Origin: Actinomadura luteofluorescens
GTDB taxonomy: Bacteria; Actinomycetota; Actinomycetes; Streptosporangiales; Streptosporangiaceae
Reading direction: 5' to 3'
Assembly: GCF_013409365.1 (NCBI RefSeq)
Contig: NZ_JACCBA010000001.1
Location: forward strand, 2,108,001 to 2,172,000
DNA length: 64,000 bases
A program made the position numbers and the translations under genes. Numbering within the stretch: position 1 is the first letter of the stretch; every line of letters starts with the position of its first letter. Of the stretch, positions 10,680 to 20,117 are shown one piece after another. The notes beneath the pieces were generated by a model that was not told where the DNA came from, did no database searches, and worked only from the letters and a program-made list of their open reading frames with translations.

Positions 10680-11930
10680 TTGAGTGAGCCACGCCTGGAC
10701 CGGCCTCCGATGAGCCGAGACGAGGCGGACAGAACGCTCGCGCGCCTCCAGGACGAGAGGGAGCGCATCGGCGCGGCCCTGCTGGAACTGGAGGCCCACC
10801 AGGGCTACCAGCTGCTGGAGGGCGCGGCCCTGCGCGGCGCGACGCTGCGCGTGCAGTCCGACGTGCGGTCGCGGACGGCGTCCCTGTGGCTGCTGTTCGA
10901 CCTGCACGGGCGCGTCCTGTCCGCCGCCGAGGAGTTGCGGGCCCGCCACAGCAGGCCCGGCCAGGCGCAGCTCGCCGAACTCACCCGGCTGCTGGACGGG
11001 CCGTCGGTGGAGCTGCCCGCGGCGCAGGTGCCGCTGGAGCGGCGGACGCTGCTGGCCGTCCCGTCCGGCGAGCGGCTGACGCTGCGGGCGGCCGTCGAAC
11101 GGATGACGCCGCTCTATGAGGAGGTCGCGCGGGCGGTCGCCGCGCTCGACGCGGTCTGGTCGACGCTGCTGTCGCGGCTCGCCGAGGTCGAGGCGGAACG
11201 GCGGGCGGCCGAGGAGCTGCTGGAGTCCGCCGGCGGCGCGGACCCGGACCTCGAACGGCTCCGCGACGAGCTGGCGTCCGTCGCCGCGACCGTGCGCGCC
11301 GACCCGCTCGCTATGGCGCGGGACGGCCTCGCCGACACCGCGCGGCTGGACGCGATCCGCTCCGGCCTCGCCGACGTGCGCCGCGGCCTGGAGGAGGCGG
11401 AGCGGCTGCGCGAGGGGTTCGCCGCCCGGATCCGCGGCGTCGCCGCCGTCCTCGACCTGCTGCGCGAGGCCGAGGCGGAGGCCCGCGCCGTCCGCGACGA
11501 CGTCCTCGTCAAGATCACCGCGGCGGCGGTGCCGGACCCGCCCGACTCCTCCGCCGTCCTCGCCGACCGGCTCGCCGCCGTCACCCGGCCCCGGCCGGGC
11601 GCGGCCGCGCGGGGCGGCGGCTGGCACGAGACCGCGCGGCGGGTCGCCAGCCTGGAGCGCGCCGCCGACGCGGCGCTGGCGCGGGCACGCGAGACCACCG
11701 GCCTGATCCGGGGCCTGCTGGACCGGCGCGAGGAGCTGCGCGGCCGCCTGCGGGCCTACAGGGTGAAGGCCTCGCGGCTCGGCCACGCCGAGGACGCCGA
11801 ACTGGCCCGGTCCTACGAGCAGGCACGCGAGCTGCTGTGGACCTCCCCCTGCGATCTGCGGAAGGCCACCGTGGCCCTGACCGCGTACCAGCGGGCCGTC
11901 ACCTCGCGGGCGAAGGGAGCGGATCGATGA
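10680..11930 (+). CDS. Coiled-coil protein, first gene of the PknG operon
   Basis: The protein has up to 416 residues and is almost entirely alpha-helical, rich in Glu/Arg/Ala/Leu heptads, with no signal peptide or membrane segment. It is probably a cytosolic scaffold. The start is uncertain: TTG at 10680 or ATG at 10710, neither with a strong ribosome site; the ATG matches where the conserved helix begins. Its stop overlaps the pknG ATG (ATGA), so it is translated with the kinase. Similar proteins head pknG loci in other actinomycetes, but their role is unknown. Confidence 0.8.
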
Positions 11931-14329
11931 GCCAGTGCGCGCAGCCGGGGTGCGGAGGGACGATCGCGGACGGCTACTGCGACGTGTGCGGCAATCCCCC
12001 CGCGGCCGCCGCGCCCGCGCCGAGCGCCGCCCAGAGCGCCGCGCCGAGCGTCCCGGCCCCGCGCCCGCCCGCCGAGCAGCCCGACCGGTGCCACCAGGCC
12101 GGGTGCTCCGGCACGATCATGGACGGCTACTGCGACGTGTGCGGCTCGCCGCCCGCCTACACCGCCCGCGTCCAGGCGGCCGCGGGCAGGTCCGGGAGCG
12201 GGGGCGGGCCGGCGGGGACCGGCGGCACGGCGACCCCGGGGAGCACGGCGACCGGCAGCACCCGGACGGGCAGCACCCGCACCGGGTCGGCCCGCTCGTC
12301 CGGCCGCCGCGGCATGCTCGGCGCCGGGCTGGTCGAGGTGCCGCGCGTCCCCTACCGGGACCCGTCCAGCGCGGTGATGAGCGACCCGCAGGTCGCGGAG
12401 GCCAAGCGGTACTGCAGCGGCTGCGGCGAGCCCGTCGGCCGCGGGCGCGGGGACCAGCCGGGACGAACGGAGGGCTTCTGCCCCAAGTGCGGCGCCCGGT
12501 TCTCCTTCACCCCGAAGCTCGGCCCGGGCGACCTCGTCGGCGGCCAGTACAGCGTGCTGGGCTGCATCGCCCACGGCGGACTCGGCTGGATCTACCTGGC
12601 GCAGGACAAGAACGTCAGCGACCGCTGGGTGGTCCTGAAAGGCCTGCTCGACAGCGGCGACGCCGACGCGATGGCCGCCGCGGCGGCCGAGCGCGCGTTC
12701 CTCGCGGAGGTCGAGCACCCCAACATCGTCAAGATCTACAACTTCGTCCAGCACGGCGGCGACGGCTACATCGTCATGGAGTACGTGGGCGGGGAGTCGC
12801 TCAAGGACATCCTGCTCCGGCAGCCGCTGCCGGCCGGCCAGAAGCACCTGCCGGTCGCGCAGGCCATCGCCTACGGGCTGGAGGTGCTGCGGGCGTTCGA
12901 GTACCTGCACGCGCAGGGCCTCGTCTACTGCGACTTCAAGCCGGACAACGTGATCCAGTCCGAGGAGCAGCTCCGGCTGATCGACCTCGGCGGGGTGCGG
13001 CGGCTGGACGACCCGGACGGCGCGATCTACGGCACGGTCGGCTACCAGGCCCCCGAGATCGCCGACGCCGGCCCCTCGGTGACCTCCGACCTCTACACGG
13101 TCGGCCGGGCGCTGGCCGTGCTGAGCTTCCCGTTCAAGGGCTACACCCGCGGGTTCGCCGACTCGCTGCCGCCGCGCGAGGACGTCCCCGTGCTCCAGCG
13201 GTTCGAGTCCTACGACCGGCTGCTGCGCCGCGCGACGCACAGGGAGCCGACCGCCCGGTTCCAGGACGCGGCGGAGATGGCCGAGCAGCTCACCGGCGTG
13301 CTGCGCGAGGTGCTGGCCGCCGAGGACGGCACCCCGCGTCCCGCGCCGTCCGGGCTGTTCGGGCCGGAGCGGTTCACGACGCGGATGGCGGGCGAGGCGC
13401 GGGAGGAGGCGGCGCTGCCGCCCGTCCCGCCGCCGGTCGCCGCGGCGTCGCTGCCGGTCCCGCTGGTGGACGGCGCCGACCAGGCGGCCGCGTTCGTGTC
13501 CGGGCTCGGCGCGCTGGAGCCCGCGCAGGCCGCCGAGGCGGCGGCGAACGCGCCCGAGCGCACGCCCGAGGTCAGGCTGGCGCTCGCCCGCGCCAAGATC
13601 GAACTGGGCGAGGCGGGCGAGGCCGACGAACTGCTCGACGCGCTGGCCACGGAGCGCCCCTCCGACTGGCGGATCGGCTGGTACCGCGCGGTCGGGCTGC
13701 TCGCCCGGGGCCGCGTGGACGAGGCCGCACCGCTGTTCGACCGGCTGTACGCGCTGCTGCCCGGCGAGGCGGCCCCCAAGCTGGCCCTCGCCTACTGCCG
13801 CGAGCGGTCCGCGCCGCACGACGCCGTCCGCCTGTACGACACGGTCTGGCGCACCGACCAGAGCTACATCAACGCCGCCTTCGGCCTCGCCCGCGTGCAT
13901 CTGGCGGCGGGCGACCGCCGCGCCGCCGTCGCCGCGCTCGACTCGGTACCGAAGATCTCGATCCGGTACGTGCCCGCGCAGGTCGCGGCCGTCGTGACGG
14001 CGGTGCGCGGCCGTCCCCCCGCCGAGCTGACGGCGGGCGAGCTGGTCGCCGCGGGCCACCGGCTCACCGCCCTCGACCTGGACGCCGAGCGCCGCGACAG
14101 GCTCGCCGCCGAGGTGCTGGAGGCCGCGCTCGGCTGGATCACGGCGGGCCCCGGCACGGCGGCCGGGACGCAGGGCGGCTCCCTCTTCGGCGCCCCGCTC
14201 GCCGAGGCCCCGCTGCGCCGCCTCCTGGAAGGGACATACCGGGAGCTGGCACGCCGCACCCGTGACAGGGACGAGTGCCGCCGGCTCGTCGACTCCGCCA
14301 ACGCCGTACGCCCGAGGACGCTGCTGTGA
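11927..14329 (+). CDS. pknG: Serine/threonine protein kinase PknG
   Basis: The soluble kinase has 800 residues. Two N-terminal cysteine knuckles (C4/C9/C18/C21 and C55/C60/C69/C72) both read [17 protein letters not shown]. A Gly/Thr/Ser-rich linker follows, then the PknG rubredoxin motif (CSGCG about 163, CPKCG about 185), the kinase domain (about 205-465) and C-terminal TPR repeats. Catalytic elements are present: Lys238 in VVLKGL, CDFKPDN (Asp336) and IDLGG at the metal site, which PknG has in place of DFG. In mycobacteria and corynebacteria PknG phosphorylates the FHA protein GarA/OdhI to tune 2-oxoglutarate metabolism. The ATG is coupled to the previous stop. Confidence 0.97.
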
Positions 14330-19281: not shown

Positions 19282-20117
19282 GGGCGCGGCGCCTCGCGGC
19301 GGCGGTCCTCGCGGCGGCGGCCGTCCTCGGCGCGGGAACGGCGTGCGGGATCGCCGACGCCGGCGAGGAATCCGTCGCCGGAAAGGACGCGCTCGTCATC
19401 GGCGTCAACGGTGACCAGCCGGGACTCGGCGAAAGCCGGGGCGACGGCTCGTTCACGGGATTCGACGTCGACATCGCGAAGGAAATCGCGCGGCGGATGG
19501 GCGTGCGGCCCGGCGATGTGACGTTCGAGCGCGTGACGTCGGCGACCCGCGAGAAAATGCTTCAGGACGGCGACGTCGACCTCGTGGTGGCCAGCTATTC
19601 CATCACCCCGGAACGCAAGGTGAAGGTGTCGTTCGCGGGTCCCTACTATGTGGCCCACCAGGACATTCTCGTCCGCAGGTCCGAGGCCCGCGACATCCGG
19701 AACATCGACGATCTGAAAGGGCGGCGGCTCTGCCGCGTCCCCGGGTCGGTGTCGTTCCCGCGCGTCCACGACGAGCAGGGCGTCGCCGCGCTGCCGGTCG
19801 AGGCGAGCGGGTACGCCGGGTGCCTCACCGAGCTCACCCGGGGCCGGCTCGACGCCGTCTCGACCGACGACCTGATCCTCGCGGGCCTCGCGGCGAAGGC
19901 GTCCGGGGGCGCTCTCACGCTCGTCAACGCCCCGTTCACCGACGAGCCCTACGGCGTCGGCATCAGGAAGGGCGACGTCGACGGCTGCGAAGCGGTCAAC
20001 AAGGCGATCACGGGGATGTACCAGGACGGCACCGCGCCGCGGCTGCTGGACAGGTGGTTCCGCCCCGCCGGACTCAAGGCCACCACCACCGTCCCGCAAT
20101 TCGAGGGCTGCGTCTGA
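19278..20117 (+). CDS. glnH: GlnH-like amino-acid-binding lipoprotein
   Basis: The protein has 279 residues of the SBP type 3 family. The signal peptide ends with GTACG, an imperfect lipobox (glycine at -3). Conserved features include GFDVDIAKEIARRMG, the DLVVASYSITPERK strand and late cysteines. In mycobacteria GlnH binds aspartate, glutamate and asparagine and signals through GlnX to PknG instead of feeding a transporter. No ABC permease or ATPase is adjacent here, which supports a sensor role. GTG at 19278 overlaps the glnX stop and was preferred to the GTG at 19269. Confidence 0.9.
   Translation: MRARRLAAAVLAAAAVLGAGTACGIADAGEESVAGKDALVIGVNGDQPGLGESRGDGSFTGFDVDIAKEIARRMGVRPGDVTFERVTSATREKMLQDGDVDLVVASYSITPERKVKVSFAGPYYVAHQDILVRRSEARDIRNIDDLKGRRLCRVPGSVSFPRVHDEQGVAALPVEASGYAGCLTELTRGRLDAVSTDDLILAGLAAKASGGALTLVNAPFTDEPYGVGIRKGDVDGCEAVNKAITGMYQDGTAPRLLDRWFRPAGLKATTTVPQFEGCV

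Follow-up and report, generated by a model that had tools for sequence, protein, structure and literature searches.

A pknG operon of Actinomadura luteofluorescens that also encodes a phosphatase, an ArnB-like VWA protein and an FHA protein

The operon and its products

The DNA analysed here (the window) is a stretch of 64,000 nucleotides from Actinomadura luteofluorescens (contig NZ_JACCBA010000001.1, positions 2,108,001 to 2,172,000), and positions given without a genome label are counted from its first letter. Between 10680 and 20117 it carries seven consecutive genes on the plus strand, which encode in this order cc1, the kinase PknG, a PP2C phosphatase, a VWA protein, a zinc-ribbon FHA protein, GlnX and GlnH, and which may together form an amino-acid-responsive phospho-switch. 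Five of the six joints are 4-base ATGA/GTGA overlaps, the remaining one (VWA-FHA) being a 2-base gap. The gene identities, the coupling at most joints and the presence of phosphatase, VWA and FHA genes beside the kinase had all been proposed in an earlier reading of the letters (the original prediction) and are borne out here, Pfam and NCBIfam naming every member of the operon except cc1. Its features are as follows.

10680-11930, plus strand: cc1, an all-helical protein, first gene (start TTG 10680 or ATG 10710)
11927-14329, plus strand: PknG Ser/Thr kinase with N-terminal Cys4 ribbons, rubredoxin, kinase and TPR parts (Pfam, 2pzi match, catalytic residues)
11936-11992, plus strand: first extra Cys4 zinc ribbon of PknG (motif)
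12089-12145, plus strand: second extra Cys4 zinc ribbon of PknG (motif)
12413-12490, plus strand: rubredoxin Cys4 site of PknG, C163, C166, C185 and C188 (Pfam PknG_rubred; columns invariant in 8 rows)
14326-15606, plus strand: PP2C Ser/Thr phosphatase with an N-terminal double zinc ribbon (Pfam PP2C_2 and DZR; motif Asp)
14410-14628, plus strand: double zinc ribbon of the PP2C, residues 29-101 (Pfam DZR)
15603-16931, plus strand: VWA protein with an ArnB-type three-part fold and an intact metal ion-dependent adhesion site (MIDAS) (Pfam VWA and VWA_3_C)
16857-16886, plus strand: C-terminal tail of the VWA protein, LDTRSSKTVR, residues 419-428, a candidate phospho-acceptor (conservation of S423 and T426)
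16934-17773, plus strand: zinc-ribbon and FHA protein, ArnA-like in layout and not GarA (Pfam FHA, 44.5 bits; phosphothreonine-site residues)
17495-17731, plus strand: FHA domain, residues 188-266 (Pfam)
17770-19281, plus strand: GlnX transducer with four transmembrane segments (NF058618; four hydrophobic segments)
19278-20117, plus strand: GlnH solute-binding protein, predicted lipoprotein (SBP_bac_3; lipobox by eye; alternative start GTG 19269)

The kinase is a PknG by every measure applied. Its rubredoxin, kinase and PknG_TPR domains follow one another with Pfam scores of 102.8, 101.4 and 304 bits, it aligns with M. tuberculosis PknG (2pzi) over residues 130-798 at 551.9 bits, and it retains the catalytic Lys, the catalytic-loop Asp and the DLG Asp. 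Among relatives, FKVDN/DMG replace FKPDN/DLG in the kinase motifs of PknG at 11 Streptomyces-family loci (L029-L032, L034-L040), while L033 has FKVDN with DLG.

Five motif aspartates bind metal in PP2C phosphatases, and all five are present in 100/100 rows of the PP2C alignment. The VWA protein consists of a vWA domain, a split beta-sandwich and a C-terminal helix bundle, as ArnB does, and matches ArnB over its full length rather than over the vWA domain alone, with an aligned identity of 14%; the original prediction, in treating it as an anonymous extra, had missed this fold. Its MIDAS residues (D52, S54, S56, T127, D154) are invariant in 29/29 sequences. So are S423 and T426 of the tail, which are kept in 96 and 95 of 100 rows respectively, the tail decamer having an identity of 0.85.

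In the FHA protein an N-terminal Cys4 ribbon (C46, C49, C58, C61) precedes the FHA domain, the layout of ArnA, although the zinc ribbons stay below the Pfam DZR cut-off (20.6 against 27.3). The linker between ribbons and FHA domain includes seven tandem PAPPV units (17249-17353). The arginine of the phosphothreonine site is Arg in 89/96 rows and Lys in 4/96, and the motif Ser and Asn stand in 95/96, with roles in part as described in PMC6509490. Three clusters (L071, L081, L088) have an FHA protein without this arginine, and PP2C is missing from all three. A joint loss of the VWA tail in these clusters was considered and rejected, the tail S-x-x-T remaining in L071 and L088 and its Thr in L081; only the loss of arginine and PP2C is left, in one clade, and it is not used as support.

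GlnX scores 284.6 bits against the family model NF058618 (cut-off 250) and does not reach the narrower kinase-G-activating equivalog NF041460 (46.5 against 780). GlnH was aligned with 6h1u and with the Glu-binding 5eyf, and the roles of its residues in ligand binding were taken from section 9 of PMC6069109. Arg147, which contacts the side-chain carboxylate of the ligand, is kept in all 134 rows (the window counted twice), and GlnH of the window also keeps the amino-acid-holding Ser, Arg and Asp, so that Asp or Glu is its likely ligand. Its affinity is possibly altered: both Thr162 and Trp232 of the M. tuberculosis pocket are replaced, by Ser and Tyr respectively, and 5eyf likewise has Tyr at the latter position. 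In one relative (L085) GlnH is matched twice within a single glnH open reading frame, first by residues 52-265 and then by residues 276-601, which may point to a tandem or fused sensor.

The neighbouring open reading frames, a divergent one on the minus strand (9978-10625) and a coiled-coil-like one on the plus strand (20292-21500, after a 174-base gap), look like borders of the operon. A simple scan of 8700-22900, of little weight at 74-77% GC, found no sigma-70-like site near the operon start and no terminator-like site within the cluster.

Conservation and loss across actinobacteria

PknG_TPR was detected at E 1e-15 in 98/296 sampled genomes of the class. We annotated 161 neighbourhoods (80 selected from 133 places, 80 named loci, the best among 578 confirmed relatives, and the window), a sample biased towards close relatives of the window; removal of two duplicates left 159, of which 135 are untruncated near the kinase. 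PP2C, VWA and FHA genes all lie beside pknG in 81 of these 135, none of the three does in 38 (stripped loci, including four distant Streptomycetaceae-family paralogues, L041, L042, L043 and L047), and 16 are mixed; all seven genes occur in 68/135. The gene set is thus widespread, whereas a gene order confined to this strain would have refuted the original prediction. The order from cc1 through pknG, PP2C and VWA to FHA is largely constant (exception L071), but glnX and glnH move together: they precede the other genes in Streptomyces, Nocardia and others, follow them in the home family, and are inverted at some loci. Four-base overlaps recur at 68/95 of the cc1-pknG joints examined, 53/100 pknG-pp2c, 30/89 pp2c-vwa, 18/90 vwa-fha, 16/39 fha-glnX and 71/125 glnX-glnH joints. 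Together with the conservation of PP2C, VWA and FHA beside pknG, these overlaps exclude a chance grouping.

The closest named relatives are Actinomadura, with a best-segment PknG identity of 89% to Actinomadura sp. WMMA1423. The home genome carries a second complete cluster besides that of the window, at G000:C1:4269117-4278650 (L009); the products of the two are 48 (cc1), 62 (PknG), 45 (PP2C), 65 (VWA), 51 (FHA), 53 (GlnX) and 57% (GlnH) identical; Actinomadura latina and A. pelletieri have two loci each. The C-terminal domain VWA_3_C follows PknG: 66/69 genomes with a match above its cut-off also have PknG, 58/84 of the places are within 6 kb of PknG (most of the rest belong to family f78, some of them on short contigs), and 0/14 control genomes have one.

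Zinc ribbons recur throughout the set. A pattern search found a Cys4 ribbon before the PknG rubredoxin in 80/88 full loci versus 0/38 stripped loci; seven full-locus kinases are negative by pattern (six with a remnant, one cut by the contig) and one is unscorable. At least one ribbon occurs on PP2C in 99/100 and, by pattern, on FHA in 82/96. In the paralogue clusters that hold PknG and VWA only (L044, L045, L046, L048), a C-terminal Cys4 ribbon is found on the VWA protein itself.

On a PknG tree (FastTree, 159 rows, midpoint root; a quick tree, with 17 truncated rows left out of the label counts) the label 'core only' requires 5 changes, 'full' 12 and 'part' 11. The stripped rows of family f4 adjoin full Nocardia rows, and those of Amycolatopsis and its kin adjoin full Kibdelosporangium and a metagenome-assembled genome (MAG); the other stripped rows are L019, a second type of PknG in family f78, and the four distant paralogues. 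We take the f4 genomes for Mycobacterium and close kin from their tree position and from the GarA peptide SDEVTVETTSVFRADFL in one of them, a peptide given in PMC8546545. The pattern suggests that the four-gene half was lost repeatedly, subject to the midpoint root and quick tree. The seven-gene unit is not a strain-level assembly and appears to be older than the stripped relay, which suggests that tuberculosis-type bacteria possess, in their GlnH-GlnX-PknG relay, a reduced form of a larger system. That the mycobacterial relay has no PP2C, VWA or FHA gene beside it holds for most f4 loci (L049-L056, L058), a 21-bit reverse-strand PP2C-like match in L052 being the sole such trace among them, and fails for L057, which has all three. 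The latter belongs to an f4 genome with three PknG genes (L057, L058, G507:C24), one of which lies in a complete Nocardia-like seven-gene cluster that could derive from transfer or assembly mixing.

A putative phospho-switch and competing explanations

In Sulfolobus, ArnC (TPR and kinase) phosphorylates the ArnB C terminus (PMC5300886), the zinc finger of ArnA holds unphosphorylated ArnB loosely while its FHA domain binds phosphorylated ArnB (PMC12852372), and PP2A dephosphorylates ArnB, whereupon the complex falls apart (PMC7472852); the ArnA-ArnB pairing is nutrient-dependent. Each of these roles has a counterpart in the operon, which adds a sensor, and by this analogy we favour, at about even confidence, the reading of the operon as a full amino-acid-responsive phospho-switch. 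GlnH, binding Asp or Glu, would signal via GlnX to PknG, and PknG would phosphorylate the C-terminal tail of the VWA protein. The zinc-ribbon/FHA protein would be held loosely on the VWA protein by its ribbons and would latch once the tail is phosphorylated; the zinc-ribbon PP2C would then strip the phosphate and the complex would open. The protein cc1 would be a helical accessory, and the output would be separate from GarA. After correction for the tree (independent pairs on the PknG tree), VWA and FHA occur together in 5/8 pairs with none opposed (p 0.0625). A VWA protein of Streptomyces rimosus, SRIM_014225, perhaps a counterpart of the operon VWA, is phosphorylated in vivo (PMC9600765).

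Several observations weigh against the phospho-switch. ArnB_C is absent among the Pfam matches of the VWA protein at E 0.05, VWA_3_C (73.1 bits) appearing instead, so that the protein is classed as ArnB-like in fold and not as a member of the ArnB family, and according to the 2026 ArnAB paper (PMC12852372) the ArnB blueprint is mostly not linked to multi-phosphorylation. Five untruncated clusters and one truncated (the named ones Nocardiopsis) keep PP2C and FHA without VWA, L012 having a 27-bit VWA remnant only, and as no VWA_3_C lies elsewhere in the three VWA-less genomes examined, FHA must have another ligand there. Conversely, L105 and L107 keep VWA, tail intact, without FHA and PP2C; L110 is without PP2C only. 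VWA and PP2C occur together in only 3/8 independent pairs (none opposed, p 0.25). The link between ribbons and module comes down to 5 independent contrasts, of which 4-5 agree and none is opposed (p 0.06-0.125); for the PknG ribbon against PP2C alone, 4.2 agree and 1.2 disagree of 9.

The main rival, unlikely in our estimate and still the strongest of those considered, has the FHA protein docking on PknG itself, at the autophosphorylated N-terminal region, as GarA and OdhI do, and scaffolding the PP2C by the kinase, while the VWA protein is a MIDAS adaptor with no phosphothreonine contact. The phosphorylated PknG N terminus does recruit an FHA substrate (PMC8546545), the Nocardiopsis-type loci are as this would have them, and PP2C and FHA show the strongest tree-corrected co-variation (together in a mean of 7.5/9 pairs, 0.1 opposed; median p 0.016, range 0.008-0.070). 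It leaves the near-invariant VWA tail and the ArnB fold unexplained, and VWA and kinase persist without FHA and PP2C in L105, L107, L044 and L046.

A second rival builds on the original prediction of a reversible relay and takes it for the canonical one to the tricarboxylic acid cycle, with the operon FHA acting as GarA and the local phosphatase giving reversibility. The GlnH, GlnX and PknG parts are indeed those of that relay, but we consider this version improbable, since the operon FHA is not GarA as judged from its sequence: it scores 15.1 bits against the OdhI equivalog NF041660 (cut-off 200), and its translation is without the N-terminal ETTS phospho-motif of GarA/OdhI (PMC12321487). The home genome encodes a GarA orthologue elsewhere, at G000:C1:9358718-9359107 (L089; 194.6 bits, just below the cut-off of 200); this protein carries a Cys4 zinc ribbon at its N terminus, and STSTISIGG replaces ETTSVFR. 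Of the genomes searched for GarA, 30/30 and 16/16 gave a GarA-type match at E 1e-30 (three genomes common to both sets), above the OdhI cut-off in 10/30 and 12/16. A reversible amino-acid relay is supported in part, as to its components, their coupling and the local phosphatase, and not as to the GarA role.

The ribbon on GarA was also considered as a module-linked trait. Among 30 genomes GarA had an N-terminal ribbon in 15/18 full-cluster genomes (and in the remaining 3, read later), in 2/2 VWA-less and in 1/10 stripped genomes. The link was rejected after comparison of further full-cluster genomes, GarA being ribbon-less in full-cluster Nocardia (4/4), Kibdelosporangium, an Amycolatopsis MAG, G507, and the Micromonosporaceae Paractinoplanes and Phytohabitans; a ribbon like that of the home GarA occurred in none of the genomes examined from Nocardia, Pseudonocardiaceae, f4 and Micromonosporaceae, and the trait thus follows lineage and not module.

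Adjacent kinase, PP2C and VWA genes define the TerY-P triad and the E. coli YegI-YegK-YegL set, and the operon has this adjacency. That it is such a stress-type triad with a borrowed amino-acid sensor, its VWA protein acting via the MIDAS metal and not the tail, agrees with the invariant MIDAS and with zinc ribbons common to the members, but is hardly probable, if weakly tested, given that the VWA protein matches ArnB beyond the vWA domain.

Relation to known systems

The GlnH-GlnX-PknG(-GarA/OdhI) relay of Mycobacterium and Corynebacterium (PMC6069109, PMC9769921, PMC8546545) shares with the operon an orthologous PknG, a GlnX-family transducer and a GlnH with the ligand Arg. The three-gene core and its conservation in Actinobacteria are already published in these papers (PMC6069109 in particular). 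The operon differs in adding PP2C, VWA, zinc-ribbon FHA, cc1 and the extra PknG ribbons, in the two GlnH pocket substitutions described above, and in that GarA is encoded elsewhere. Among the listings and passages of open-access literature examined, no text covers the seven-gene cluster and none connects PknG with an ArnAB-like pair; these neighbours may be shown in subscription papers, in supplements or in the STRING view (Fig. 2B) of PMC6069109, and the genes are visible in annotated genomes. Nearly all the PknG work that we found concerns Mycobacterium and Corynebacterium, for which a three-gene operon is published. Should the larger cluster be the commoner and older form, there are conserved partners of PknG that those models do not show, and Streptomyces becomes a place for studying them.

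Two proteins known for their structure are also relevant. PDB 4FX5 is the VWA protein of Catenulispora acidiphila, a close known system whose gene neighbourhood is not discussed in the excerpts of PMC6509490 and PMC12852372. Foldseek matches the VWA protein to the Sec23/Sec24 core of COPII over about 445 alignment columns (1pd0, 3.9e-13); these are eukaryotic coat proteins, homologous to ArnB according to PMC12852372, far more distant and with their zinc finger in cis.

The ArnA-ArnB-ArnC/D-PP2A switch (PMC6509490, PMC12852372, PMC7472852, PMC5300886) differs by Pfam in having ArnB_C where the operon protein, at the low identity given above, has VWA_3_C, and it uses PP2A where the operon encodes PP2C. 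The operon brings candidate counterparts of all parts, and a sensor, together in one unit. It is a tentative and rather doubtful possibility that actinobacterial PknG and the Arn network of archaea represent two branches of a single ancient nutrient switch, made up of a TPR-linked kinase, an FHA protein with a zinc finger, a vWA protein of the ArnB/Sec23 type and a phosphatase, that the relay of Mycobacterium and Amycolatopsis is a remnant after several losses of FHA, VWA and PP2C, and that in most PknG-bearing actinobacteria VWA, not GarA, is the primary partner. Through the ArnB fold an amino-acid sensor of bacteria is tied to a nutrient switch of archaea, for which the excerpted Arn literature names no upstream sensor. 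With sensor, kinase, switch pair and phosphatase all encoded in one operon, both the bacterial and the archaeal system become testable.

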